Positions 1 through 17,158 of a DNA stretch of 57,884 bases are shown here, piece after piece. Position 1 is the stretch's first letter. The number at the start of each line of letters is the position of its first letter. The position numbers and the translations under genes were made by a program. Source of the stretch: an uncultured bacterium (GTDB lineage: Bacteria; Cyanobacteriota; Vampirovibrionia; Gastranaerophilales; JAILCC01); contig CASDUJ010000034.1 of assembly GCA_949283935.1 (NCBI GenBank), positions 1-57,884 on the forward strand, in the 5' to 3' direction. The notes under the pieces are model-generated. The model did not search any database. It was given only the letters and a program-made list of their open reading frames with translations, and was not told the DNA's origin.

Positions 1-3000
1 CATAATCCGCTATCCAAATCAAAAGTAGAACCAAAAGGACATACGGTACACTTTTCTCCATCCCAATAAGGAATATTTTCATTATCCCAAAAACAAGTTA
101 AGCAAGTATTTAATGCTAAATCATAAATATTATCGCAAACACATGCAGGATAAGCACCTGTTGCATCAATTGGACAAGAGAAAGTTTCACAAGAATTACC
201 ATTCCAGAAAGTATCAACCGGACAAGGTTCACAAATATTATTTGTAGAATTATAAATTGGGGTTTCGCCATTTACTGAACAATCACAATTTGGATATTTT
301 CCTGTTGCTTCAGCAGGACAACAAATTGTTTCAGAGCTACAACCTGCTGTAGCAGGAGCACCTTCTGGCATATTTTTTAATTGAGGATATTCGCTACAAG
401 AAAAACACCAAGTATTATCATCCCAATCAACGTATATAGAAGTACCCTTAGAACGTTTCATTTCTGCAGTAGTTTTAGGTTCACCATTTATACAAGTTCC
501 TGTATTCTTGCATAAACCTAATATGTAATTATTTGAACTATTCCAATAACTATTAGTAATAGTACCCGAAGAAATTCCAACCAAACCACCAAAACCTGAA
601 GTAACAGTTGGAGAAACAGAAGTAGAACCTGCATCGTTTACGCAAATAACTTTGGCATTCGTTGTATTTCTAAAATCATACTCATCTTTTGACATTGTTG
701 GATAAAAATATCTATCAAAAGCTATTCCTGCAGAATATTCTGCACTCGACCAAAGTCTAAATGAAGCTCCAGAAGTAACATCTGCATCAGATGCCACACC
801 TGTAAGTAAGAAATTCCATAATTCTTTATCAGCTACTTCAAGTGCATTAAATTCACAGCAACCTTCTTGACTAGTATTAGTGCAAATCGTACTACAATTA
901 TAATTTGTATTATAAATTTGATTCATTATTGCCATTAATTCAGCCATCGTTGGTAGTCTTTTACCTTGATCAGCACAATATTTTGCAGCACCTGCCCAAT
1001 AATCATTTTCTAATATACAAGATTTAATACGGTCTGAATTTGAAGTAGCAAATGCTCGACAATCAGATTTAGACAAAGCGGTAGCAGCAACAGGTGAAGT
1101 TAAGCATAAATTGCCAGCATGGTATGAACCTGCGCCACAAACTCCTTCTCCAGGAATAGTACCATCACTTTGAGTAACTTTTCCAACAGAATAACAATTT
1201 GATATATAACCGCTACCACTTGGTAAATTTCCAACCAACCCACCAACATTGTAAATATCAATAGAAGAATTTGCAGTTACATTACCAGTTGCATAAGAAT
1301 CAGACAAAGAAGCATTGCTCGTAGGTAGCATAAATCCAACAAGACCACCTACCACAGGTTTTCTTGTTGTAGTAACTTCAACATTACCTGTTGCAAAAGA
1401 TTTTTTAACATGGCTATCTAAAGTACCAATCAATCCACCTACGTGGCTATTATTTTCATTACCTTCAGATGCAACAGCATTAGAAGTAACTTTTACATTA
1501 CCTGTAGCATATGATTTTTCAAGATTGGAACTAGATCCAACACTTCCGGCCAAACCTCCTACATCAATCTGTTTTGAAGCTTCTGCTTCTATATTTGCAT
1601 TGGAATATAAATTAGAGAAAGTACTACCTTCAACACTTCCAACAAAACCTCCGGTGAAATTATGTCCTTGAGAATTTGATATTATCGTGCCACTTTTTAC
1701 ACTAGAAGCATCAACAGTTGAACTTTGAATTGTTCCTATCAAACCACCTATAGACAATAAATCGCTGGAACTTGTTACATTAATATTGACATTTTCTGCA
1801 TAAGAATTTGATAAATTAGAATTTTCAAGAATCCTACTCGCTAAAGAACCAACGTATGAATAATTATTAACTGTATCTTTGAATGTTACATTTATGTCAA
1901 CATTTTTTACATAAAGATTTGTTAATGTAGCATTTTTAACAAGTCCTAAAACACTTACATCTGAAGCATTTGTTGTTATGTCTATGTCGACATTTTCAAC
2001 TCCTAATTTTCTTATAATAGCAGAAGGATTAATTAATCTAAACAAACCTTGTGCTTGTTGACCAGTATAGTTAGGTCGGTTAATTACAAGATTAGTAATT
2101 TTATGATTATTACCATCAAACACACCAACAAATCCACTACTATCGTTGTCTGCAATAGGTACCCAACCTTCATTTGTATTAAATTGAGGTAGGCTTATAA
2201 AGTCTGACAAATCAATATCATTCATCAAACAATAATTACCATTAAGCGGATAAGAAGCATTATTACCAATTTGAGCCATGTCATCGGCACTAGAAATAGC
2301 TATATAACCATTTTCACAAGTCCCTATTTTATTGTCTAAAACGCAGCTATAACCATCTTTATCAAGAGAACTGCCTACCGGACATGTTGCACAACGCAAA
2401 TCACAATTATTAGCTGTTGGTGCATTTGCAGGCATACCTTTTAATTGCGGATAATTATCGCAAACAAAACACCAATCATCGACTTTCCAATTTACAAACA
2501 CAGTATCTGTAGGTGTTTTATGCAATTGTTCAGTAGTTTTAGGTGAATTAGGCGCACATTGACCACCATAATACCAATCTGAAAAACAAGGAGGGTAACT
2601 ACCTGATGGATTTTTTGTTGAATCATAATAGTTATTAACCAAAGTTCCGCCATCAAGCATACCTACTAATCCTGCTGCAGGATAGTATCCAGATGAAAGA
2701 TTTCCGGCAAAATATGAATTTAAGATTGTACCTCCTGTCATATAAGCAGTAAGTCCGCCTACCCATTCGCCACCATTTAAGGAGCCCGTAGAGTAAGAAT
2801 TGGCAATCTCACCACCTCTCATATAACCTACTAAACCACCTGTGTACATGTAGCCGGAAGTATTAACAGTAGAAAAGCTGTTAGAAATTTTACCATTTAA
2901 GCGTCCAATCAAACCACCAATTTCTTCAGGCATTTCATAAACATTATTTGTTGTAATTGAACCTGTCGCATAAACATTTTTCATTTCACCTGTAAATTCA

Positions 3001-6000
3001 CCAGCAACGGCGCCAACATATTTAGGAGCATCAATAAGAACATTTTCAACAGCTAAGTCGTTTATTGTACCTGAAACAGAACCAAACAAACCTTGATAGT
3101 ATCCGTTTGGGCGATTAATTTTTAAGTTTGCAATTTTATAACCGTTACCTTCAAAAGTTCCTGAGAAAACAGAGTTAGCATTAGCATTTTTGTTAGCTAC
3201 AGGAACCCAACCTTCTCCTTCTGAGAAGTAATCCAAACTTATATCTTGCATTAAACAATAATTACCATCTACAGGATAAGAAGTATTATTTCCTATTTGA
3301 GCTAAATCTTCTGCATAATAAATAGCAATTGCTCCACTTGGACAATTTTTGTATTCAGCATCATTAACACAAGAATTGTTGACCATAGTAGTTCCTGCAG
3401 GGCAAATTACGCAATGCTGGTTACAAGAATTAGAAGAAGGAGCCCCATCTGGCATATTTTTCAAAACAGGATACGCAGAACAATTAAAACACCAATTATC
3501 CGTTGACCAATGAGTATAAACTCTAGAACTAGGAGTTTGATAAAGTTCTGTTGTGCTTTTAGCAATTACAGAACTATTTGGATTATTTCCACTTGCTGGC
3601 AAACCAGTATTCACAGTAGAATCAAAATAAGAATTTTTAATAGTTAAAACACTTTTATCTGTATGTTCATTACCAATAAACGCGCCTTTTATTGTGGAAC
3701 TTGTACCGGTTCCTAAAACATATCCGTAAGAATAAGAATTTGTTACATATCCATCGTTAGCGATATTTCCAATAAATCCGCCTATACTAAGATTAGCACC
3801 TTTTGCACTAACAGTTCCGCCAGAATAACAGTCTAAGATACTAGGAACTGCAGAACCTACAAAGCCACCCGCCAAAACATGTTCAGCATTATTTACAGTA
3901 ACATTTCCAATTGCAAATGAGTGACTAACAGAAGAACCCTCTTCAAAAGTTGCAGCCACACCACCAGCAAAAGCAGTATTTCCATTTGTAGAAGCAGTTA
4001 CATTACCAGTTGAGTAACAATTTAAAATTGAGCCGTAAGTACCGCCGACCAAACCTCCAGCCCAAACATTTGAAGTACTATCAGTAGCCGCACCGAAAGA
4101 TTTAACCTCTACATCACCTATGGCATAAGAATTTGTTACAGAACAAGAATTTGCATATATAGTCCCAATCAATCCACCGGCATGAACTGTATGAGATTCA
4201 CTTTCAGCATTTACAGTACCTGTAGCGTAACAATCTGATATAGTTCCTCCTTCTCTTATGCTACCGATAAGTCCTCCTGCAGATATATCGCCAGAATAAA
4301 TCGCAATAACAGCACCTGCGGCGTAGGAATTTGACACATCTGCTTCTTTAGCAACACCTATCAAACCACCAACAGAAATTCCACCACTAACCAATCCGGT
4401 AGCATTGCTATTTTTTAAATTAATTTCTTTTACTTGTCCAATTAATCCACCTGTAGCGTCCAAACCAACAACACTTCCGTTCGCATAAGAACTATTTACT
4501 TCTGCGCCATCTTCTGCAACATAACCTATTAAGCCGCCTGCATTTGAACTAGTTACACTAATATTACTAGTTGAATGACAATTATCAATTCTGCCACCTT
4601 GATATACAGAACCAATTAATCCACCACCTTGTCCATCAGCAAGAACTTCTCCAGAACTAGAACAATTAGAATAATTAGAATAATTTGAACGTCCAACTAA
4701 CCCGCCTGCATCAGATACATCCGCTGTAACATTAGAATTCGCGGAACAAGTCGTAAAAGTCGAAGAATTAGAATGTCCAACAAGACCGCCTGCATTTGTA
4801 CCTATTGAAGAAACCTCTACATTAGAAGAAACATCTGTTACTGTTGAGCTGCCTGCATATCCGACCAAAGCACCAACATTATTTGCTGCATCTATTGTAG
4901 AACCTTCAATAACAAGATTTTTAAAAGTAGCATTGTTCGCATAACCAAACAAACCTTGATTATCTGAAGTTGTACGATTAATATATAATCCAACAATCTT
5001 ATGGTTATTACCATTAAATGTCCCTTTAAATGGTTGATTAACCGTTCCTATAGGATACCAACCTGAACCAGATAGATATTCCGGAGTATTTATGCCTAAT
5101 TTACTCAAACCTTCATAAAAAGCAACCAAACCATTATCAACGGACATAGACGAAATATCTATATCATTCATTAAGCAATAACTTCCATCAAGCGGATAAG
5201 AACGATGATAACCAATACGAGCCAAATCTTCAACTGAATAAATAGCTATAGCTCCTTCAGGACAAGTGCCGACTGCAGAATCAAGGATACAAGAATTTTC
5301 TTCAAAATGAGTTCCAGCAGGGCAAGAGACACAACGGTTTTCGCAAACAGTAGCATCTGGAGCACCATTAGGCATATTTTTCAAAACAGGATAATCATCA
5401 CAAGCAAAACACCAATCATCAGTTAACCATCCGACATAAACTTCATCGGTAGGAGTAGCATAAAGTTCTTGTGTAGTTTTACCAACAGAACCATAATCAT
5501 TAAACCCACACCCAACATTTTGTCCTGTAGTAATTTTATCAAAATAAGAATTTACTATAACTGCACCACCAGCATAGTTGTCACCTACAAGACCACCAAC
5601 ATAATTAGTATTTGCAGCTACAACATTTCCAGTAGCATAACTATTTTCAATTTTATCATATGCTCTACCGATTAAACCTCCGACACCATCACCGGATCCT
5701 GTAACATTTCCCGTAGCATAACTATTTGAGATTTTAGAACCTTCTGCCGCTAATCCAATTAAACCACCAACTTTAGAATTTTCACCTGTAACATTACCTG
5801 ATGCAAAGCAATTTAGGATTTTAGATTGATTTCCCATTGCACAGCCGACAAGACCGCCTACATTATCTGTACCATTTACAGTAGCAGTAGAGTAAGTATA
5901 GCTAATATTTACAGGGTCTACATTACCAACTACACCACCAACATTTGATAAGCCATTAACCTCTCCAGCAGTATAAACTCTCGAAATATTACCACTCGCA

Positions 6001-9000
6001 TAACCAAATAATAAACCAGCATAAGAACCAGCATCAACTGTACCATTAGCTGAACAATTAGTCACAGAAGTATTAGAAGCATAGCCTGCCAACAGACCAA
6101 CATAATCTTTTGCAACAATATTTCCTTCAATATCAAGATCTGTAATATTTGCGAGATAAACAGAACCAAACAAACCTTGAGAACTTAAATTAGGTCTATT
6201 AATATACAAGTTGATTATTTTGTGCCCATTTCCATTAAATACACCTGTAAATTTAGCAGTAGTAGTACCTATAGGCAACCAACCCTCATTACTTGTATAA
6301 GGAGTAAGGTCAATATCATCAACTAAACAATAATTGCCATCTAATGGATACCCTAATTCGACACCAATTTTTGCCAAATCATAAGACAAACTAATTGCAA
6401 TAGCTCCATCAGGACAAGTTCCTACGGCAGAATTAAGTATACAAGCTCCTTGAGAATTTTCAGTAGAACCAGGAGGACAATGCGTACACTCAATACCATT
6501 ATGATATGGTTTTGTAGGATCAGCATCAACACAAGAAGCACAACGATTTTCCCAAGGGAAATAAGCAGGAGTATCGACAAAAGCACTACAGTCACAATTA
6601 GGATGAACTCCCACAGAGCCCGGAGGACAATCAGGAGTATAACAAATATTTTGAATAGGATTATAAGATGTTACATTTATATCAATGTCACACACGCAAG
6701 CATCAAAACTACCATGTGCCTCAGGAGGACAACAATTAGCAGCACAATTTTTAGTTTCTGGTGCACCTTTTGGCATATTTTTAAGCAAAGGATATTCGCT
6801 ACAAGAAAAACACCAAATATCCTGACTCCAACTATCATAAATTGCCGGAATAGAAGCCTTTTTCATTTGTGCAGTAGTTTTGGCTATAGCAGTAGAGCAA
6901 TCAGAACTTTGACAAGTATGAATTGAAGACAAAGATGGATTTATAGTTGAATTGTAGTATGAATGTTCTACAGCAACTAAACTTGTATCTGTTTTCATTC
7001 CAATAAATCCAGCCAATCTAGGAGCTATAGGAGAATTTCCTGATACTAAACCATAAGAATATGAATTTCTAACAGAACCATTTGCATTATAAATGTCTCC
7101 TACTAAACCTCCTGCTACAGTGTAACCTTTTGTATCATGGGCATTCATTGTAATATTTGCTGTTACATTACCTTTTGCATAGCAATCAAAAATATTAGCC
7201 GAATTTTTCATGACCCCAACTACACCACCTGCAATACCTTCAAAGTAACTATTTGTGATTTCTACATTACCTGTTGCAAAAGAATTTGTTAAAGTTGTTC
7301 CATCCAATACTCCAACAATACCACCAGCTATAGCTTGCTGCGTAGTACTTACAGCTAAAATATTTCCATTTGCATATGAATTCGAAATAGTTCCATTAGT
7401 TAATAATCCTACCAATCCACCAGCATAAGTAGGGTTCGTTGCATCATTACTTTCTGCGCCAACCTCACTTGAAGAAAAACTATTTTTTACAACAGTAGCA
7501 TTCTCAGAATCTCCCCCTAAAAGTCCACCAACATAATTTTGACCAGTAACTTTTCCTTCGGTACTACAATTATTTAGAACAGATCTTTTAGCTCCGGCAA
7601 CAAGTCCACCAGCCCAAGTAGAATTTGATAAAATTTGGGAATTAGCACGACAATTTTCAATAGTAGTTTCTTCAGCTCTAGAAATTAAAGAAGCAACAAA
7701 TTGATTGTTAGACATATCAGTAATTGTAGCATTTACTGTTAAATTTCTAATTGTTGCATTATAAGTACTTCCAAACAAAGCAGCGTAGCCATTGTACGTT
7801 TTACCTTCTTCTCTATTAATGATTAAATTAGATATTGAATGATTATTACCATCATAAATTCCTTTGAAAGATTTATCATGGACATAATTACCATTATTTG
7901 CATCACCCCAAGTTGCTGTTCCTATAGATTGCCAACCTTCACCTGAAGAATAATCAGCAAGACTTATATCTTTTATCTGGCAATAATTTCCATCTAATGG
8001 GAAATATGGATGATTACCTATTAAAGAAAGATCAAAATCATTTTCAATTATAATATATCCGGTACCACAGTTGTTAAGATTATTTTCTAATCTACAAGCT
8101 CCATCATAATAACGTGTACCAGAAGGACAAGGCTCACAAGTTTTTGTTTTACCATTCCATTTAGGAGTATCTCCTGGACAAGCTGTACAAGCCATAGGAG
8201 ATATATTTGTATTCCAATAAGGAGTAGTTCCCATACAAGGAATACAAGTCATTTTTGTTTCATCCCAATCAGGTGCATCAGCTCCATTTGCTTGATAACA
8301 AGAAATACAATCGCTACCATTCCATATAGGACGATTTTCGCCTGATTCAGGATAAGCTAAATGACAAAGAGTACAAGTATTATCTTCTATTTTATACCCC
8401 GGATTACCTGCAACAGCACGACAATCGCAATTAGGATAAATTCCTGTAACTCCTGAAACCAGAGGACAACAACCGGTTACACAATTATCCGCATTAGGTG
8501 CTCCCTTAGGCATACCCTTCAATACAGGGTAATCTCCACAAGCAAAACACCAATCTACATCTGACCAACCATAATACATACCATTATATCTTGGATTATC
8601 GTAATGAGTCATTTCAATTGTATTTTTACCCAACACATTGGAAATATTAGAGCCTGAAGTCAAATCTGTATTAAAATACCCGCTAAGTATTCCGGTATTT
8701 AAACTTCCAACAAACCCTCCAAAATTAGCTTGTGCTTTAACTTTATTTGCAGCATAAGAATTTGAAACATTACCATTTGTAACTAAACCAATTAAACCAC
8801 CTGCATATCCTACAGTAGAATTACCTCCAACGTAAGATTTAGAATACACATTAACTACAGAACCACTTAATTGATTACCAACAATACCTCCAATATTTTG
8901 AGTTCCACTTACATCTCCAATTGTGTAAGAATTTGAAATAGAACCAGAAAATTGACCAGCTAATCCGCCAACATACATAGTACCATTTACTTGCGCATTA

Positions 9001-12000
9001 GCATACACATAAGAAACACTTGTATCTTCGAGTTTTCCTGCAAGTGCACCTACGTAGTTTGCCCCAGTTACATTGGCATTATCGATACCAAGATTTTTAA
9101 TTACAGCATTTTTTGTATGTCCAAACAAACCCTGATAGAGTTCAGCACTTCTATTAATAACTAAATTCGAAATAACATGTCCATTACCATCTAAAATACC
9201 TGTAAATACATTATCTATGCCGCGAGAATAATTACCAATAGGCTTCCAACCTTCGTCCGAAGAATATCCCAAAAGGTCAATGTCACTAGTTAAACAATAC
9301 TGTCCATCTAAAGGATATGCAGCAATAATACCAATTCTTGCCAAATCAACATCACTATTAATAGCAATCATACCAGCTACACAAGTACCTATATCATTAA
9401 CCAAACGACAACTACCATTTGAAAATTCGGTATTTGCAGGACAAGGAGAACATTGTATTCCATCCCAAGCTGGTTTATCATCAGGACATCCAGAACATTG
9501 TCCTATTTTATTAGCTTCATCCCATTCCCAATAAGGTTTTGTAACATAACCATCTTCAATCATGTCATTTTCAGAACAAGTAATACAAGCATCCAGTTCA
9601 TATCTATAAACAGGTCTGACATTAACAGGATCAGGATTATTTTCCCAATCTCCTTTAGAAGAATCAAAACAAGAAATACATTTATTATCATCAGGGCTCC
9701 AAACAGGAGTTTGTGTATTAACAACATCTCTACAAGATACGCAAATATTTTTATTAGAATCATAATTTTTCATAGGATAACCTGATGCATCCAAATCATT
9801 AACTGCAGAACAATCACAAGCAGGGTGAGTTCCGGTAACTCCTACATAAGCAGGGCAGCAAATAGAAGAACAAAGACTATAAGCTGGAGCTCCTTCAGGC
9901 ATATTTTTCAAAACAGGATAATCTCCACAAGAAAAACACCAATCATCAGAAGACCAACCTGAATAAATGTTTATATAAGCATTGCTATCAGGAGCACGTT
10001 GCATTTCCAAAGTAGTTTTACCATGAACATCATCACAAGAATTGTCTGAAACACTACCACATCCTATATCCATACCGGTAGTTTCTTTGTCATAATAACA
10101 AGAACTGATAGAAACACCTAAATTGACTTTACCAATCAATCCTGCCACATAAACATCAGAAGAATTAACATTTATAGCTCCAGTAGCATATGAATTAATC
10201 ACAGAACCTTTCAGCTCACCTATCAAAGCCCCAGCTAATCTTTCTGCGCTAACATCACCTCGCGCATATGAATTTTCTATAGAAGCCACATCAGAATTAA
10301 CAGCTCCAACAAGTCCTCCTACATTATTTGCAGAAGCAAATACTTGAGCAGTAGAATACGAATTAGATATATTTAAATAATTATTTCCGACTAAACCTCC
10401 TACATAAGAATTACCTGTGACCACACCTTCTGAATAACAATATTCCAAAATCTCATAGTTTTCTCCTACTAAACCACCTACATATCTGTTTCCAACTACT
10501 CTCATTGAAGCGTAAGAATTTGACAATTTATTGTTGTTAGTAGAAGAATAGATTCCTATCAAACCACCTACATAATCATTCCCGAAAACTTCGGCACTAG
10601 AAGATTTAACGGAACAATTTTTTATATCACCACTCGCAGATCCAATAAGACCACCTACAAATCTATCACTACCTACAACAGAACCTGTTGCTGAACAAGA
10701 TTCTATATTAGCTGAAGAACTTCCAGCCAAACCTCCGACATAAGAATCCCCTTCAACATTTACATTAGAAACAACGCTTAAAATACTGCCAGAAACTTGT
10801 CCAGCCAAGCCTCCGACATAGCTAGAACCCGCTACATTACCATTGATGGTTAAGTTACGAATAGCAGCAGAGGTACCTGAAATTTTTCCAAATAAGCCTT
10901 GGTAATTAGCATTGGGGCTATTAATAATCAAATCAGAAATTGTATGGTTATCTCCTTCAAATACTCCTGAGAAAACAGGATTACTTGCATCACTATAATT
11001 ACCTATAGGTACCCACCCTTCATCTTGAATATAATCTGACAAACTAACATCTTTCATTAAACAATATTCACCATCTAAAGGATAAACAACTTTTCCTCCA
11101 ACGGTTTTACCAATTTTTGCTAACTCAGAAGCACTGTTAATAGCAATCATTCCCAGCTTACATTCAGTATTTGTCCACAAATTATTTACTCTACAAACAC
11201 CCAAAGTTTCATCAAATGTTGTATTATGAGGACAAGCCACACATTCAACACCATTCCATATGGGTTTATCTGCCCCATTTAGTTCATAACACGAAACACA
11301 AGTATTATTTTCCGCATTATAAGCAGGAGTACCATCATACTCTAAAGGTGAACAATCGCAAGAACCCAACGTACCAGTGGCTCCTTCGGGGCAACAATGA
11401 GTATAACATATATCGTGAGTTTCAGCGTTTTTAGGCATATTACTTAAAACAGGATAATCGCTACAAGAAAAACACCAATCATCAAAACTCCAACCAACAT
11501 AAACAGAACCATAAGTTCCTTCATAAGCTGCATTTTGCAAATCTTGTGTAATTTTATAAATCACACCAACACAAGCCGTGCCACAAGCTGGCAAAATACT
11601 TTCAGGATGAGTGTCTCTATTCAAATAAACAGATTTAATTTCTTTGGGATTTTCAAGTTTACCTATTAAAACACCCCTTTGAGCACCTGTGCCTGTAACA
11701 GTAGCTTGTGAATAGCTATTAAGCAAAGTACTTTCTGCTTTAAACTCTCCAATTAAACCACCAACCATAGAAGCAGTTTTGCCATTCACTGTGGCTTTAG
11801 AATAAGTATTTCTAACTTCAACTCCTTCAGCTTCACCAATTAGCCCCCCAATAGAAGTTGAATCATTATCTCCGCTAGAAGTAACTATGGAATTAGAATA
11901 AGAATTTGATACAATATTTTTAGCTAAACCAACCAAGCCTCCCACATGCAATTTACCTATTACTTCAGCATCAGAATAACTATGTGTAATAGTTCCTTCA

Positions 12001-14087
12001 GATTTACCAACGAGGCCACCTACATCAGTACCATTAGGGCTCTCTATTATTGAATTAGTATAAGCCTTACTTACAATAGCATTAGGTCCTAAATATCCAA
12101 CAAGTGCACCTGTTTCCCCGTAACCTGAATTTTTTATACTACTATTTGTAACTCCAATGTCAGAAATTTTAGCATTTCCTGCAACAGCTCCAAAAAGCCC
12201 TACTTGTGATGCAGATGTATTTATTTTCATATTTTTAATTTCATAACCATTACCCTTGAAAGTACCTAAGAAAGGATTTGCAAAATTACCTATAGGAATC
12301 CAGCCTGAACCTGTTTGGTAAGAAACATCCTTTTGACTATCGCCTTCGCCAACAGTAACATTAGCTTCTGTATTAAAGTCAATATCATTAATAAGGCAAT
12401 AAGATGCTGCTAAATTATAACGAACCCTATTGAGAGTATCGGCATTAAAAACAACTATATCACCTTTAGCGCAATCATTAGTTACGGTAGTAGTTCCTCC
12501 GCCACCACTTGGATCATCAGGATCTACAGGTGCATCCGGATCATCTGGTTCAGGTTCTGATTCTTGTATACAACTACCCAAAACAGGATTCAAAACTGTT
12601 CCTTCTGGGCAAGGGACGCAAACACAATGCATTTGATCAAGCAAGCCATTAGAACAAGAACTTTGATCTATAGGACAAACACAAGCAGATGCAGCTCCTT
12701 TAAGTCCATTTGAAACAAAGGGAGCAGGACAATCACAAGCACAAACATCCACATTATCATTATATGAACCTATACCATAGGCAGAACATCCGGTATTTGC
12801 TTCACAAACGCAAGCAGCATCATTATTGGTTAATTTATTTGAAACATATGGAGAATTACAATAACAAGAACAATCATCTGCATTATAAGTACCATTTTTA
12901 CAATTAACATTTAAATTAGCACAAACACAACCATCACCTGTAGAATTAACAATTTTGTCACTACCGCAATCGTGACAAGTTTTTGTTGCATAGTCAAAAT
13001 ATTGGTTACTTCCCGTACAAACACACTGACATATGTTTGAATCTAATTTAGTGTTTTGCCCACAACTCTCTTCAGTTAATTCACACTTGCACTCGCAAGT
13101 ATTAGGATCTCTAACCATCTGACCTGTATCGCAAGGAGAATTACAATCTCTACATTCACACGTAGCACCTTGTCCATCAGAATCTAAAACCCATCCTCCA
13201 CCTTTCGCAAGACAAGCAGCCTCAATATCTTTATCACAAGACCAACATCTCTCATCGTCCCAATCTAAAACATAAGGAGAACCAACTGTATTTACAACGC
13301 TTAGTTTGTCGTTATTTTCTGAAGCAGTACAATCTTTGACACAACTACCAAATCTGAGGACCAAAGAACTATCTTCGCATTCGCAAACACAAGAATCAAA
13401 ATCAGACCCAGAGCAAACAATACCTTTGGCTTTATCTGATAAATTTTCACAAGTAGGTTCAGTAACATTGGATGGAGGAACAAGGATGCCCCCAGAAGGT
13501 TTTTCTTGAACACCATCACCGTAAACAGGAATTACATATTGATCTTCCCCAGAATTATTAGGATTTGTCGTAGAATTTAAGTCAACTAAAACAGCTCCAA
13601 TTAAATCCTCAGCTTCAGGTATTAATGCCGAAGAAGAACTATTAGACCCACCTGATGCGACATAATTTTTTCCCGAAGTGCTTAAGCCACCAGAGGGCAT
13701 AAAACCAAGACTAACGCCGTTATTTAAAGTAACACCGGACAAATTATCAACAGATGCACCATCAATTTTGTTGATAATGCCATCGGAACCACTAGCCCAA
13801 CCAGCACTGCCTTCCCAGGTATTTGCGACGTCTAGGCGGTTTTGGAAGGTATCTCTAAGTTCTTGAGGGGTGTTTGCAGTAAATTTTAATGTATTTTTTT
13901 TGTCTAAAGTTAGGACAGATTTAGATGCAGTAAAAACATCGTTGTAAACTTTATCATATTGAGTCGAATACAGGTGTGCTTTATGCTGGTCTCCTCTTAT
14001 GCCAGATATAACAAGAAGCACAACTACCCCTAAAATTGCCAAAGTAATAAGGACCTCGGCAAGCGTAAATGCATGCTTTTTTATCAT
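1..14087 (-). CDS. Giant prepilin-like GLUG-repeat surface protein (partial, C-terminus beyond left edge)
   Basis: Not a known named gene. The frame is open from the ATG at 14087 to the left edge, about 4,695 codons; I checked the frame at many points along it and found no break. Residues 1-30 form a class III (type IV prepilin) signal: leader MIKKHA, then FTLAEVLITLAILGVV with Glu at mature position 5 and Ala rather than Gly at -1. Residues 30-195 look like a pilin-type head. A Cys-rich region follows (about 200-500), then a Pro/Asp/Gly linker (about 507-535). Eight cassettes come next, each with an entry motif like GAIAIxxxxDLAxIG, a GWxPIG strand, several GLUG repeats (VGGLVGxx...NSYAxG) and a DWCFxCxxYPxLKNMP Cys module. 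About 60 GLUG repeats can be read. I infer a membrane- or pseudopilus-anchored adhesin. The ribosome-binding site is weak. The usual pilin is only 150-250 residues. Confidence 0.9.
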   Translation of the reverse strand, partial: MIKKHAFTLAEVLITLAILGVVVLLVISGIRGDQHKAHLYSTQYDKVYNDVFTASKSVLTLDKKNTLKFTANTPQELRDTFQNRLDVANTWEGSAGWASGSDGIINKIDGASVDNLSGVTLNNGVSLGFMPSGGLSTSGKNYVASGGSNSSSSALIPEAEDLIGAVLVDLNSTTNPNNSGEDQYVIPVYGDGVQEKPSGGILVPPSNVTEPTCENLSDKAKGIVCSGSDFDSCVCECEDSSLVLRFGSCVKDCTASENNDKLSVVNTVGSPYVLDWDDERCWSCDKDIEAACLAKGGGWVLDSDGQGATCECRDCNSPCDTGQMVRDPNTCECKCELTEESCGQNTKLDSNICQCVCTGSNQYFDYATKTCHDCGSDKIVNSTGDGCVCANLNVNCKNGTYNADDCSCYCNSPYVSNKLTNNDAACVCEANTGCSAYGIGSYNDNVDVCACDCPAPFVSNGLKGAASACVCPIDQSSCSNGLLDQMHCVCVPCPEGTVLNPVLGSCIQESEPEPDDPDAPVDPDDPSGGGGTTTVTNDCAKGDIVVFNADTLNRVRYNLAASYCLINDIDFNTEANVTVGEGDSQKDVSYQTGSGWIPIGNFANPFLGTFKGNGYEIKNMKINTSASQVGLFGAVAGNAKISDIGVTNSSIKNSGYGETGALVGYLGPNAIVSKAYTNSIIESPNGTDVGGLVGKSEGTITHSYSDAEVIGKLHVGGLVGLAKNIVSNSYSNSIVTSSGDNDSTSIGGLIGEAEGVEVRNTYSKATVNGKTASMVGGLIGEFKAESTLLNSYSQATVTGTGAQRGVLIGKLENPKEIKSVYLNRDTHPESILPACGTACVGVIYKITQDLQNAAYEGTYGSVYVGWSFDDWCFSCSDYPVLSNMPKNAETHDICYTHCCPEGATGTLGSCDCSPLEYDGTPAYNAENNTCVSCYELNGADKPIWNGVECVACPHNTTFDETLGVCRVNNLWTNTECKLGMIAINSASELAKIGKTVGGKVVYPLDGEYCLMKDVSLSDYIQDEGWVPIGNYSDASNPVFSGVFEGDNHTISDLIINSPNANYQGLFGKISGTSAAIRNLTINGNVAGSSYVGGLAGQVSGSILSVVSNVNVEGDSYVGGLAGSSSANIESCSATGSVVGSDRFVGGLIGSASGDIKNCSVKSSSAEVFGNDYVGGLIGIYSSTNNNKLSNSYASMRVVGNRYVGGLVGENYEILEYCYSEGVVTGNSYVGGLVGNNYLNISNSYSTAQVFASANNVGGLVGAVNSDVASIENSYARGDVSAERLAGALIGELKGSVINSYATGAINVNSSDVYVAGLIGKVNLGVSISSCYYDKETTGMDIGCGSVSDNSCDDVHGKTTLEMQRAPDSNAYINIYSGWSSDDWCFSCGDYPVLKNMPEGAPAYSLCSSICCPAYVGVTGTHPACDCSAVNDLDASGYPMKNYDSNKNICVSCRDVVNTQTPVWSPDDNKCISCFDSSKGDWENNPDPVNVRPVYRYELDACITCSENDMIEDGYVTKPYWEWDEANKIGQCSGCPDDKPAWDGIQCSPCPANTEFSNGSCRLVNDIGTCVAGMIAINSDVDLARIGIIAAYPLDGQYCLTSDIDLLGYSSDEGWKPIGNYSRGIDNVFTGILDGNGHVISNLVINRSAELYQGLFGHTKNAVIKNLGIDNANVTGANYVGALAGKLEDTSVSYVYANAQVNGTMYVGGLAGQFSGSISNSYTIGDVSGTQNIGGIVGNQLSGSVVNVYSKSYVGGNSTVGYAGGLIGLVTNGNVSNSYAANKVKAQANFGGFVGSLNTGILSGYFNTDLTSGSNISNVLGKNTIEMTHYDNPRYNGMYYGWSDVDWCFACGDYPVLKGMPKGAPNADNCVTGCCPLVSGVTGIYPNCDCRAVAGNPGYKIEDNTCTLCHLAYPESGENRPIWNGSDCISCYQANGADAPDWDETKMTCIPCMGTTPYWNTNISPMACTACPGDTPKWNGKTKTCEPCPSGTRYYDGACRLENNLNNCGTGYIIIENDFDLSLIGNHPYFPLDGNYCQIKDISLADYSSGEGWQSIGTATWGDANNGNYVHDKSFKGIYDGNNHSISNLIINREEGKTYNGYAALFGSTYNATIRNLTVNATITDMSNNQFVASLISRAEETTIENCRANSQILSNSTWAGGLVAGAKRSVLNNCSTEGKVTGQNYVGGLLGGDSENATVVKNSFSSSEVGAESNDATNPTYAGGLVGLLTNGTISNSYANGNILAVSTTQQAIAGGIVGVLDGTTLTNSFATGNVEITNSYFEGIAGGVVGVMKNSANIFDCYAKGNVTANITMNAHDTKGYTVAGGLVGDIYNANGSVRNSYSYGLVSGNSPIAPRLAGFIGMKTDTSLVAVEHSYYNSTINPSLSSIHTCQSSDCSTAIAKTTAQMKKASIPAIYDSWSQDIWCFSCSEYPLLKNMPKGAPETKNCAANCCPPEAHGSFDACVCDIDINVTSYNPIQNICYTPDCPPGSVGVHPNCDCSAFVDTPAYFPWENRCASCVDADPTKPYHNGIECTHCPPGSTENSQGACILNSAVGTCPDGAIAISLSYDLAKIGVELGYPLDGNYCLVDDIDLTPYTSNEGWLPIGTTTAKFTGVFNGNGHKIINLYINRPNLSSQGLFGSVYLANITDLDIEGNIVAKDYVGLLAGYASNTSVTNCSANGTVDAGSYAGLLFGYASGNISRVYTAGEVNGLSNVGGVVGNVDPVNISYTYSTATVNGTDNVGGLVGCAMGNQSKILNCFASGNVTGENSKVGGLIGLAAEGSKISNSYATGNVTGSGDGVGGLIGRAYDKIENSYATGNVVAANTNYVGGLVGDNYAGGAVIVNSYFDKITTGQNVGCGFNDYGSVGKTTQELYATPTDEVYVGWLTDDWCFACDDYPVLKNMPNGAPDATVCENRCVSCPAGTHFEENSCILDSAVGTCPEGAIAIYSVEDLARIGYHRSYPLDGSYCLMNDIDISSMSVDNGLVAFYEGLSKLGINTPEYLSGSGWYPIGTVNQPFKGTFNGNNHKIVGLYINRTTSDNQGLFGYANNATFKNLVIEGSTIDAANNVGALVGYAGSSTVTDVSSNVEVSSIGTNAGGLVGHSNSSTFTTCSANSNVTADVSDAGGLVGRSNYSNYSNCSSSGEVLADGQGGGLIGSVYQGGRIDNCHSTSNISVTSSNAGGLIGYVAEDGAEVNSSYANGSVVGLDATGGLIGQVKEINLKNSNATGLVSGGISVGGLIGVAKEADVSNSYAAGAVIAIYSGDISAGGLIGSIREGGTISDCYATGTVNAESESHTVHAGGLIGTIYANSCSVTNSYAIGDVEVKSFGAATDSTSNVWAGGLVGGTYGSILNCYSTGNVTASTNGNTAFAGGVAATFEEGSSVSHSFAIGNVTVNNAEHVLAGGFVGSAVPSILDCYSGGTVSAKGANLSIGGFIGNIANDGYVTNSYSYGYVLGTGTSSTIKGAFIGNEHTDKSVLTIKNSYFDSTVNTGLPASGNNPNSSVIAKSTTELYQTPSSRVYTHWSTDNWCFNCSAYPVLKNMPDGAPSSNSCNQHCVICPAGTTMVNNSCVNDAEYKNCPSGAIAIYYAEDLAQIGNNTSYPVDGNYCLMQDISLDYFSEGEGWVPVANKNANANSVFSGTFEGNGYKIANLKINRPNGYYQGLFGSVSGTINDLAVENVLIDAPKYVGAVAGEFTGEMKNVYATGSITTNNVYEMPEEIGGLIGRLNGKISNSFSTVNTSGYMYTGGLVGYMRGGEIANSYSTGSLNGGEWVGGLTAYMTGGTILNSYFAGNLSSGYYPAAGLVGMLDGGTLVNNYYDSTKNPSGSYPPCFSDWYYGGQCAPNSPKTTEQLHKTPTDTVFVNWKVDDWCFVCDNYPQLKGMPANAPTANNCDLRCATCPVGSSLDKDGYSCVLDNKIGTCENGYIAISSADDMAQIGNNASYPLNGNYCLMNDIDLSDFISLPQFNTNEGWVPIADNDSSGFVGVFDGNNHKITNLVINRPNYTGQQAQGLFRLINPSAIIRKLGVENVDIDITTNASDVSVLGLVKNATLTNLYVKNVDINVTFKDTVNNYSYVGSLASRILENSNLSNSYAENVNINVTSSSDLLSIGGLIGTIQSSTVDASSVKSGTIISNSQGHNFTGGFVGSVEGSTFSNLYSNANIEAEASKQIDVGGLAGSVGSSSNLEKSYATGNVKVTSNAVASEGNENNSHVGGLIGTLDSHVKKSFATGNVEVTTTRKPVVGGLVGFMLPTSNASLSDSYATGNVTANSSIDIYNVGGLVGNLPSGSGYISNCYSVGKVTQSDGTIPGEGVCGAGSYHAGNLCLTSPVAATALSKSDCRAFATSNSDRIKSCILENDYWAGAAKYCADQGKRLPTMAELMAIMNQIYNTNYNCSTICTNTSQEGCCEFNALEVADKELWNFLLTGVASDADVTSGASFRLWSSAEYSAGIAFDRYFYPTMSKDEYDFRNTTNAKVICVNDAGSTSVSPTVTSGFGGLVGISSGTITNSYWNSSNNYILGLCKNTGTCINGEPKTTAEMKRSKGTSIYVDWDDNTWCFSCSEYPQLKNMPEGAPATAGCSSETICCPAEATGKYPNCDCSVNGETPIYNSTNNICEPCPVDTFWNGNSCETFSCPIDATGAYPACVCDNIYDLALNTCLTCFWDNENIPYWDGEKCTVCPFGSTFDLDSGL
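283..2340 (-). repeat. GLUG beta-helix/Cys cassette 8 of 8, with inserted domain
   Basis: Entry motif GYIAISSADDMAQIG, GWVPIA near 2165, about eight GLUG repeats, then an inserted DUF1566/Lcl_C-like domain (690-1150). One more GLUG-like strand, a WCFSC module near 405 and a CDC motif near 290 follow. Further Cys modules continue to the window edge. Confidence 0.7.
690..1150 (-). other. DUF1566/Lcl_C-like domain inserted in the giant protein
   Basis: On the minus strand this stretch encodes AAKYCADQGKRLPTMAELMA followed about 55 residues later by FRLWSSAEYSAGIAFDRYF. The pairing of an RLPTxxEL helix with a WSS(A/T)EY strand is the usual signature of DUF1566/Lcl_C domains, small C-type-lectin-like folds found in bacterial adhesins. 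Several Cys (for example in CEFNA and CILEND contexts) may form disulphides. It interrupts the GLUG pattern, so it probably forms a globular head on the beta-helix. The ligand cannot be read from sequence. Confidence 0.6.
2395..3360 (-). repeat. GLUG beta-helix/Cys cassette 7 of 8
   Basis: Entry motif GAIAIYYAEDLAQIG, GWVPVA near 3205, about five GLUG repeats, DWCFVC near 2475, then a short CxxCP module leading to cassette 8. Confidence 0.7.
3410..5275 (-). repeat. GLUG beta-helix/Cys cassette 6 of 8 (longest beta-helix)
   Basis: Entry motif GAIAIYSVEDLARIG, GWYPIG near 5050, about fourteen GLUG repeats and a WCFNC closing motif near 3490. With twice the repeat number of most neighbours, this cassette is where repeat gain by slippage or recombination is most evident. 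Confidence 0.7.
5335..6430 (-). repeat. GLUG beta-helix/Cys cassette 5 of 8
   Basis: Entry motif GAIAISLSYDLAKIG, GWLPIG near 6280, about seven GLUG repeats, DWCFAC near 5410. Its Cys module is short and runs almost directly into cassette 6. Confidence 0.7.
6690..8078 (-). repeat. GLUG beta-helix/Cys cassette 4 of 8
   Basis: Entry motif GYIIIENDFDLSLIG, GWQSIG near 7930, about eight GLUG-like repeats, a WCFSC closing motif near 6810, and a CVC/CDC type end near 6700. Confidence 0.7.
8415..9390 (-). repeat. GLUG beta-helix/Cys cassette 3 of 8
   Basis: Entry motif GMIAINSDVDLARIG, GWKPIG near 9245, about five GLUG repeats, DWCFAC near 8550, CDC near 8430. It is followed by a Cys-rich segment (8090-8415) with several PxWNGxxCxxC units. 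Confidence 0.75.
9810..11175 (-). repeat. GLUG beta-helix/Cys cassette 2 of 8
   Basis: Entry motif GMIAINSASELAKIG, GWVPIG near 11010, about nine GLUG repeats, DWCFSC near 9945, and a CDC motif near 9820. After it (9430-9810) comes a long Cys segment with the PxWxGxxCxxCP motif. Confidence 0.75.
11345..12480 (-). repeat. GLUG beta-helix/Cys cassette 1 of 8
   Basis: First large repeat of the giant protein. It starts with the entry motif GDIVVFNADTLNRV, passes a GWIPIG strand near 12300, has about six GLUG repeats, and closes with DWCFSC near 11480 and a CDC motif near 11350. Boundaries are approximate, read from motif positions. Confidence 0.75.
12490..13490 (-). other. Cys-rich stalk and Asp/Pro/Gly linker of the giant protein
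   Basis: This coding sub-region lies between the pilin head and the first beta-helix. It holds many closely spaced Cys in patterns such as CxCxC and CxxC with short Gly/Asn-rich loops, like chains of small disulphide-knotted modules (EGF- or TNFR-like in style, but not assignable to either by eye). It ends in an acidic Pro/Asp linker and a GGGG run at about 12490-12570. Such a region would be oxidised outside the cytoplasm and would act as a stiff spacer; that role is inference. Confidence 0.7.
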
Positions 14088-14859: not shown

Positions 14860-14900
14860 ATTTCTGATATTTATATGATACAATATTGCTGAGGATGGTT

Positions 14901-15794
14901 ATGAAGAAGATTTTAGTTGTAGTATTTATTTATATATTAATTACCATTTCGTTATCCAACAAAATGGTTCAAGCTTTTTCGTTATTTAGCAAGAAAAATA
15001 TTCAAGAACAAACGCAAGAAAATTACGAAGAAATTGAATTAAATTTAAAAGAGCAAGACAAATTAAAGATAGAAAAAAATGCTCCTGCAAAGGATATAAA
15101 GTCATTAGGACTTACCAAATCAGATGAAGAAAAGATCAAAGCATTTGAAATTCAAAAGAAACAAGATGTAGAAGACATAACAAATCTTTGGCTTGCAACT
15201 GTTGAAAGGAACAATGTAATAAAATTTGCCTTAAAAAAAGTTACAATGAACCCTCAAGAGAGGAAAAAACACTCTTCAAAGATGGCAAGAACAATAGCTG
15301 CACTTGTAAACGGAGCAACATTATTGCCGTACGTATTTGGGCTAGATGCAACTATTGCTTCAGCTGCTGCTGCAGGAACATCTTTAACCACACAAGCGGT
15401 AAAGAACAAAATGGGATATGGAGTAGCAAATATTCCTGTAACTGACACAGAACTTATACAGCTAGCTTCACTTATTGAAGATTTACAAAACAATTTGATA
15501 AAAAATTATTATTCATACAAAAGTTCAATTGAACTTTTAAAAGATTGTCGCTCTAAACTAGCTTTATACAAAAAAAACTACAACAATGCATTGTCAAAAA
15601 AAGAACAAGCAAACATTCTCGTAACTAAAGCTATGTACGAAAAGCAGCAAATGGAAGAATTAAAATTAAAAAACAAAATTAAAACTGCAAGAATTGAGCT
15701 AGAAAGATTTGCAGGTGAAGAAGTAGTAAACAATTTAAATTTAGTAAGAGTTAATGAACTGCAAGCAAATAATTTGGAAGGAGCAGATTTATGA
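14901..15794 (+). CDS. Exported alpha-helical protein, first of a coupled paralogous pair
   Basis: About 297 residues. The chosen ATG at 14901 follows GAGG with a 6-base spacer and begins a clear signal peptide (MKKILVVVFIYILITISLSN). A charged helical stretch (about residues 30-90) leads into a conserved core: a LWLATVERNN motif, a Gly/Ala-rich possibly membrane-active segment near residues 133-170, then TDTELIQLASLIEDLQNNL and long amphipathic helices to the end. The core matches the next gene: LWVSAVQKSD and DADLVILARAIDELQ, with NYxSYKS in both. The last part resembles the hairpin helices of TolC-family proteins, but the protein is too short for a complete TolC and no beta-barrel is seen. 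Its stop overlaps the next start (ATGA). Function unknown; probably envelope. Confidence 0.75.
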   Translation: MKKILVVVFIYILITISLSNKMVQAFSLFSKKNIQEQTQENYEEIELNLKEQDKLKIEKNAPAKDIKSLGLTKSDEEKIKAFEIQKKQDVEDITNLWLATVERNNVIKFALKKVTMNPQERKKHSSKMARTIAALVNGATLLPYVFGLDATIASAAAAGTSLTTQAVKNKMGYGVANIPVTDTELIQLASLIEDLQNNLIKNYYSYKSSIELLKDCRSKLALYKKNYNNALSKKEQANILVTKAMYEKQQMEELKLKNKIKTARIELERFAGEEVVNNLNLVRVNELQANNLEGADL

Positions 15795-17158
15795 CAAGAT
15801 TATGCAACATTATATGCATTTTATTTCTCATATTAGGTATTTCTGCTAATTCTGCATACGCAGTCAAAACTTTAAGAACCCCTCAGGGGAGAATAGGTTT
15901 AAGTTATAAAACAGAAAAATATTTTGCAACCAACAAAACAAACATAAAACCTGAAGAATTAGAAAAAATAGGTTCAATAATAAAGCAAGATGAACAAAAC
16001 CGAAAGAAAAATGAAAAACTAGCCCAAAAAGAAATGCTATCAAAAATAAAGAAAGAAAAACGTGAAAAAGAAAAAGCCAGAAAGATAGCTATTGCAAAGA
16101 TGAAAGAAAAAGAAATTTTGCAGCAAAAAAAGGAAAAAGATATAGAAGAGAATAAAAAACTTAAAGCAATAGAAGCAAAAAAGCAAAAAGAAGCTGAAAC
16201 AAAGCTCAGAGAAAATGAGCAAAAAAAACTAAAAATAGCAGCAAAAGAAGCTGAAAAGAAGCAAAAGGAAGAAAAAATTAAAATCGAAAACAAAGAAGAA
16301 TCATCTAAAACAAATTTAACAAAAACAGAAAAAAATGCTCAAGATGCATATCCTACAGAAAAGAGAAAAGAAAATTTTTTCACTAAATTAACACAAAAAC
16401 CCAAACAAGAATCAGAGAAAGCCTTACCTACTATTGAGCAAACAGGAAATAAAAATACAAATATTCAACCAACAAAAATAACAAGCAACAACCACAAAGA
16501 CTACGAAACGAGGATGATAATAAACGAAGTTACCAAAGAACTTACACAAGAGCGACCTCAAATGTTAGAAGAATTAAGCACACTTTGGGTAAGTGCTGTA
16601 CAAAAAAGTGACACAGTTTATTTTGCAATAATGAAACTATCAAATCCCAATGGAGATGAAGTAAATAAAAATGGATTTAAAAAGATATTAGAACCCATAA
16701 TAGGAGCAGCACCTCTTGTAGGTCAAGCGTTTGTAAATCCGGCATTTACTGCAGGATCGCTTATAGGAAGCAATGTAATGGGAACAATGATGAATGACAG
16801 TGCCACGAGGAGACTAACAAAGGTAAACGATGCAGATTTAGTTATTTTGGCAAGAGCTATAGATGAATTGCAAGAAGCATTGTTAGTAAATTATATGTCA
16901 TACAAAAGTGCTTACAAAGAATATGAACTTTCCATAAAAATTGCAGATGAAAGGAAAAAAGCTTACGAACAATTGAACAAACAAAACTCACCTCATATTA
17001 TATTAGCGAATACTTTTTACACAGAAGCTTTAGACAATCAATATAAAGCTCGTCAAGATTTTTTGATGAAACGTGTAGTACTAGAACAAATGGTAGGCGC
17101 AGAAGCTTTAAATGAAATAGAAAAGAAAACAAATGGAATAACCGCCTCTGGATTTTAA
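15791..17158 (+). CDS. Exported Lys/Glu-rich coiled-coil protein, second of the pair
   Basis: A 455-residue protein. It begins with a signal peptide ending near ANSAYA (about residue 24). Residues about 60-165 are an extreme Lys/Glu/Ala/Gln charged helix (repeats like KEKARKIA, EAKKQKEAE), probably a single long helix or coiled coil, as in TolA-like periplasm-spanning proteins. A linker rich in Gln/Thr/Asn follows to about residue 245. The C-terminal 200 residues are a paralogue of the preceding protein: LWVSAVQKSD, a Gly-rich segment, then DADLVILARAIDELQEALL and paired helices. Start and previous stop share ATGA, so translation is coupled and the two products probably act together. The long helix suggests spanning the periplasm; the C-terminal helices suggest contact with an outer-membrane channel. 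Both points are inference. Confidence 0.75.
   Translation: MTRLCNIICILFLILGISANSAYAVKTLRTPQGRIGLSYKTEKYFATNKTNIKPEELEKIGSIIKQDEQNRKKNEKLAQKEMLSKIKKEKREKEKARKIAIAKMKEKEILQQKKEKDIEENKKLKAIEAKKQKEAETKLRENEQKKLKIAAKEAEKKQKEEKIKIENKEESSKTNLTKTEKNAQDAYPTEKRKENFFTKLTQKPKQESEKALPTIEQTGNKNTNIQPTKITSNNHKDYETRMIINEVTKELTQERPQMLEELSTLWVSAVQKSDTVYFAIMKLSNPNGDEVNKNGFKKILEPIIGAAPLVGQAFVNPAFTAGSLIGSNVMGTMMNDSATRRLTKVNDADLVILARAIDELQEALLVNYMSYKSAYKEYELSIKIADERKKAYEQLNKQNSPHIILANTFYTEALDNQYKARQDFLMKRVVLEQMVGAEALNEIEKKTNGITASGF

Follow-up and report, generated by a model that had tools for sequence, protein, structure and literature searches.

A giant open reading frame at the contig edge

The window analysed here, a stretch of 57,884 nucleotides whose base 1 is base 1 of contig C34, contains at its left end a gene predicted to encode a giant modular pilin (3..14087, minus strand), hereafter the giant pilin. 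The initial annotation had described a single open minus-strand frame of more than 4,690 residues, and this description holds for the assembled sequence: the frame starts with an ATG at 14087 and runs for 4,695 codons to position 3 without a stop or frameshift, its 3′ end lying beyond the contig edge. The remaining five frames at the locus contain 221-614 stops, and none of 200 first-order shuffles gave more than 201 codons without a stop. GC content at third codon positions is 0.16, against 0.14-0.24 in neighbouring genes, an indication that this coding gene has resided in the genome for a long time. Neither the first 400 bases nor the tail of an ortholog described below, used as queries against the other contigs, recovered a continuation of the gene; a GLUG match at the C1 contig edge was considered as such and rejected, as it belongs to a flagellin.

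The giant gene diverges from a pair of plus-strand genes that both encode exported-looking proteins, the first (14886..15791) of 302 aa without a Pfam match and the second (15791..17155) of 455 aa with homologs in all eight genomes searched, for which reason the two probably constitute a core pair of envelope genes in the order.

A predicted pilin module at the N-terminus

The giant pilin, all features of which lie on the minus strand, opens with MIKKHA (aa 1-6, 14070..14087), a class III prepilin leader with predicted cleavage between Ala6 and Phe7 (MIKKHA^FTLAE). The leader and the residues after it (MIKKHA^FTLAEVLITLAILGVVVLLV) include the conserved Glu5 (mature numbering) and a hydrophobic stretch of 22 residues. 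Together with a match to TIGR02532 above its cut-off (23.3 versus 16.3 bits), they bear out the canonical prepilin N-terminus with Glu5 that had been noted from the sequence. The Pfam N_methyl profile scored 19.8 bits in the full-length protein, just below its cut-off of 21.2, and 27.9 bits in the genome scan, and weak matches to ComGE, GspG and GspI were also recorded. The leader is followed by a putative N-terminal α1 helix (aa 7-58, 13914..14069) and by a candidate pilin head devoid of cysteine (aa 59-210, 13458..13913). AlphaFold2 predicted, from two sequences and at low confidence (pLDDT of 44), a single helix spanning residues 9-58 and four longer strands.

Profile comparisons extend the likeness to pilins well past the signal. 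A profile that includes the helix matched ordinary pilins of the order, 220-290 residues long, across model positions 7-224 (E = 7e-18). A head-only profile, which covers residues ~60-210 in both orthologs and leaves the helix out, retrieved ordinary pilin heads of the order with E values of 2e-9 to 3e-4, whereas the best of 400 shuffled heads reached 6.1 bits. Judged by these matches, residues 1-210 are predicted to constitute a whole, normal-sized pilin module and not the signal alone, which is new relative to the first reading of this DNA, where only the signal was noticed.

GLUG cassettes and cysteine-rich linkers

Behind the pilin module extends a C-terminal region of more than 4,400 residues. 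It starts with a cysteine-rich stalk (aa 211-538, 12474..13457; 42 Cys) and continues with GLUG cassettes 1 (aa 535-890, 11418..12485), 2 (aa 971-1400, 9888..11177), 3 (aa 1564-1863, 8499..9398), 4 (aa 2002-2442, 6762..8084), 5 (aa 2553-2909, 5361..6431), 6 (aa 2937-3549, 3441..5279), 7 (aa 3577-3889, 2421..3359) and 8 (aa 3919-4577, 357..2333). The last of these contains an inserted non-GLUG domain (606..1118) that lacks a Pfam match and resembles the ortholog's tail (E = 8e-8). Cassettes are 300-660 residues long and are separated by linkers of 35-171 residues; each is bounded by a start signature, C..G.IAI (with one I-V and one I-I variant), and an end signature, W-C-F-x-C-x-x-YPxLxxMP, so that the 'at least eight' cassettes of the initial annotation become exactly eight. 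GLUG repeats are likewise confirmed (PF07581, E = 5e-85, 27 stretches), their earlier count of about 60 being slightly generous: a profile derived from repeats of this protein found 52 units, compared with 0-1 in shuffles. The Lcl_C domain that had also been anticipated did not materialize, residues 4300-4500 giving no Pfam match at E ≤ 0.01. The seven linkers contain 10, 16, 16, 14, 4, 4 and 4 cysteines, all even numbers, as would be expected if they formed disulfide-closed knots.

An alignment of twelve cassettes drawn from two genomes shows invariant Cys, Trp and Gly residues, and cassette 2 was modelled as a β-helix with a mean pLDDT of 80. By sequence, the cassettes match the N-terminal GLUG β-helix of IgA1 protease (peptidase M26; PDB 6xjb and 3n6z), with E = 1e-19 against the PDB and E = 2e-13 for PF05342; a Foldseek search with the cassette model also returned 3n6z as the nearest solved fold (E = 1e-4), with a TM score of only 0.36-0.43. 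Unlike IgA1 protease, the visible 4,695 aa of the giant pilin show no match to the C-terminal peptidase domain (M26_C) and no LPxTG anchor, and the HExxH motif is absent from both this visible part and the ortholog. The visible part likewise has no Pfam match to a translocator of the autotransporter kind.

A syntenic ortholog in a second genus

A search of related genomes for the same architecture, as the initial annotation had proposed, yielded a syntenic ortholog in G002, a genome of the same family and another genus. There, an uninterrupted frame of 6,347 aa, free of N and ending with its own stop, encodes a protein of 669 kDa with 329 cysteines and nine cassettes; its pilin module shares 45% identity with that of the window protein. 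The fusion of a prepilin start to GLUG cassettes within one gene, inferred earlier from the window alone, is thus found in an independent genome across 6,347 codons. The divergent two-gene pair accompanies the giant gene in G002 as it does in the window genome; G003 carries the pair without the giant gene. A public record of the G002 contig, JAILCC010000013.1 (isolate RUI575), agrees with it over 3,584 residues. Among contigs of named genomes, a 362-residue query found no match and an alignment query returned only JAILCC010000013.1, and about 240 genomes of the order contained no giant-pilin ortholog besides that of G002. In a cassette tree with good support for only 3 of 20 inner branches, the cassettes mostly group with others of their own genome; the group of the window protein (support 96/89) also takes in a single cassette of a different pilin encoded by that genome. 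This within-genome grouping suggests that the arrays probably grew, or were homogenized, separately.

The giant pilin has smaller companions. Four further long pilins are encoded in the window genome (2,399, 1,587, 1,366 and 1,276 aa), with Ephrin_rec_like cysteine repeats, GLUG repeats in two, and in all four a similar C-terminal stretch that resembles EF-hand loops, with weak Pfam support (E = 0.005 in one). G002 and G003 contain relatives in frames of 793-1,445 aa and another of 533 aa cut by an N run. Further long modular pilins, of up to 2,399 aa, occur in three of the four genomes of the family. Outside this small family, to which the long pilins appear to be restricted, the long-pilin profile gave only one weak match, in a 321-aa frame. 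Elsewhere in the window genome, four adjacent genes with prepilin starts (299-466 aa; L014:3515-8319 on contig C21) possibly form a minor-pilin operon, and other genomes of the order (G042, G164 and G222) each contain more than 200 first-look prepilin-like gene candidates in about 2 Mb, which would make for a very large repertoire of pilins.

Pilus machinery and a candidate disulfide-forming enzyme in the same genome

The prepilin peptidase and pilus genes for which a search had been suggested are present in the window genome. Specifically, contig C3 encodes PilC, PilB with an MshEN domain, a secretin and a PilP-like small protein in a row, while contig C13 encodes a PilT-like ATPase and two genes of PilM/O-like position, and contig C6 a second PilT-like ATPase; the PilM/O/P labels reflect position and size only, without Pfam matches. 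The prepilin peptidase gene (PilD) lies ~4 kb from the gene of the 2,399-aa pilin. The genome has one secretin only, and the giant gene does not adjoin any of the pilus genes. Genome size, low GC content, an abundance of prepilins and a sigma factor of cyanobacterial type suggest placement in the Gastranaerophilales (Melainabacteria), a termite-gut member of which has been reported to carry pilA-D and pilT (PMC5877343). The window genome also encodes a VKOR-DsbA fusion, which could form the disulfides of the stalk and linkers.

The same cassettes on other filament proteins

GLUG matches occur in 29 of 233 genomes of the order, and cassette matches in 64 of 382 genomes of the class. The long GLUG frames inspected are mostly FliD-like, and giant GLUG frames of other families, considered as further pilins, were rejected as FliD-like proteins or flagellins. 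The FliD-like caps, with 6,203-11,051 aa and internal GLUG arrays, are encoded at G169:C5:16004-49156 (L051-L052), G169:C2:73230-91838 (L054-L055), G216:C1:101696-128404 (L057-L058) and G175:C1:220022-239788 (L061). The 11,051-aa protein of G169 matches FliD_C at its C-terminus (E = 7e-8) and has no Pfam match at its N-terminus, the 8,903-aa protein of G216 is termed FliD-like by its likeness to that of G169, and the 6,589-aa protein of G175 matches both FliD_N (E = 1e-15) and FliD_C (E = 2e-35). Flagellar export of such giants poses a stranger question than the passage of a pilin.

Many genomes of the order also encode flagellins with a GLUG cassette between Flagellin_N and Flagellin_C, assigned by Pfam or, for others, by eye (L031:5210-7009; L034:3-2240; L107-L111; L113). 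The GLUG flagellin of the window genome (L009:1-806, C1 contig edge) is divided among several frames, either as a broken gene or through misassembly. A few other proteins (L103-L106 and L102) of about 980-1,044 aa combine few GLUG repeats with an ankyrin-like end and show no obvious export signal. One cassette protein from another order has a Sec-type start, and prepilin starts were absent from all cassette proteins sampled in other families. The GLUG flagellins and FliD-like caps share the cassette family of the giant pilin and its association with filament subunits, and differ from it in using a flagellar export route and scaffold instead of a pilin. The occurrence of cassettes on these subunits is in line with a display function.

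Relation to known modular pilins

Modular pilins are an established kind of pilus subunit, and at least one is a proven adhesin (PMC8179133). PilB and PilC of Streptococcus sanguinis resemble the giant pilin in joining a prepilin motif and pilin module to a module that is not pilus-specific. By contrast, processed S. sanguinis PilB has 454 residues, and the largest multi-domain modular pilin named has 860 (PMC8179133), whereas the two giant pilins reach more than 4,695 and 6,347 residues and carry GLUG and cysteine-rich modules. ComZ of Thermus thermophilus, cited in the same work, is similarly a minor pilin with a β-solenoid (PMC8179133); it has a single solenoid with a DNA-binding role, as opposed to eight or nine C-terminal cassettes joined by cysteine-rich linkers. 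Our search of the open-licence literature turned up no bacterial study that connects GLUG with pilins, although the PNAS modular-pilin data set may list GLUG pilins. Pilins with grafted modules are thus known, and the present case takes them to a size that we did not find reported in that literature.

A proposed route to the cell surface and its alternatives

The locus joins a full pilin module to a giant cassette array, in two genera, and in the window genome stands alongside pilus machinery and an oxidizing enzyme. We consider it probable that the protein is a type IV pilin of the modular kind taken to an extreme, which the pilus machinery displays in the form of a long adhesive arm; from here we infer its processing, incorporation into a pilus, passage as a folded array, display and adhesion. 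Under this model, Sec would export the giant pilin, prepilin peptidase would cut after Ala6, and PilB and PilC would build the 204-residue pilin module into a type IV pilus. The protein would leave through the secretin, and its C-terminal array of β-helix cassettes and disulfide-knotted linkers would project from the filament as a long arm, most likely binding host, food or microbial surfaces. A β-helix is roughly 2-3 nm wide, and it can be argued from this width that an extended array could in principle thread the secretin lengthwise. To our knowledge, no pilin of such size has been demonstrated in a filament, and no binding domain was recognized in the protein. Pilus tip complexes are usually capped by a subunit without Glu5 (PMC10191384), and a tip-cap position is therefore not supported for the giant pilin, which has this residue. 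The initial annotation had proposed a pilus- or pseudopilus-linked giant adhesin: the link to pili is strengthened by the whole pilin module, the core machinery and the precedent of modular pilins, and adhesion stays at the level of a plausible function. Its caveat that no delivery route was established for proteins of this size can be relaxed insofar as modular pilins provide a route in principle; it stands for the passage of 0.5-0.7 MDa, the largest named multi-domain case having 860 residues.

The pilin module might alternatively serve as a mere inner-membrane anchor, whether processed by PilD or not, for an array that fills or spans the periplasm and never joins a pilus. Prepilin-type N-termini are indeed inner-membrane anchors before assembly, the size of the protein makes secretin passage hard to picture, and the giant gene is unlinked to the pil genes. 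Yet a complete, conserved pilin head would be needless for an anchor, cassette relatives sit on surface filament subunits, and a periplasmic protein of 0.5 MDa would itself be unusual, all of which leads us to regard this explanation as unlikely. We find it less plausible still that the type IV pilus, or a mode resembling a type II secretion system (T2SS), releases the protein as a loosely held or free exoprotein for which the pilin module is a substrate tag. Proteins secreted by a T2SS normally have Sec or Tat signals, fold in the periplasm and lack pilin modules, even if a single secretin might be shared by pilus and secretion and the relatedness of pseudopilins and pilins is echoed in the weak ComGE, GspG and GspI matches.

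That the gene is a decaying or silent relic seems very improbable given its 4,695 stop-free codons, a coding GC3 bias like that of its neighbours and the conserved signature residues of its cassettes, notwithstanding that expression is not visible from sequence and that the GLUG flagellin at the C1 edge looks disrupted in the same genome. An assembly chimera that joins a small pilin gene to one for a GLUG surface protein could be suspected in a fragmented, repeat-bearing draft of 42 contigs in which the gene meets a contig edge. This suspicion is refuted in substance by the independent genome, where the same N-terminus, cassettes and neighbours accompany one 6,347-codon frame without N, and by further pilin-GLUG fusions at other loci, leaving it next to no probability.

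Implications for filament biology

Returning to the model of an extreme modular pilin, a broader and more tentative proposal is that the GLUG/Cys cassettes of this order may represent an exchangeable display module, grafted onto three unrelated filament systems, namely a pilin, a flagellin and a FliD-like flagellar cap, and that in the family of the window genome the pilus machinery may assemble and extrude subunits of 0.5-0.7 MDa, well beyond the sizes known for pilins. Pilins are textbook small proteins. If a pilin of 0.5-0.7 MDa were assembled, the pilus machine would tolerate cargo an order of magnitude above its subunits, which, if true, would bear on the passage of minor pilins through secretins and on whether giant adhesins can be secreted and displayed by way of pili. 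Within the order, the cassettes recur on flagellins and flagellar caps, which suggests a shared selective need of these bacteria for long β-helix arms on their surface filaments, and the cassette-bearing filament proteins of the order provide a testable set of proteins.
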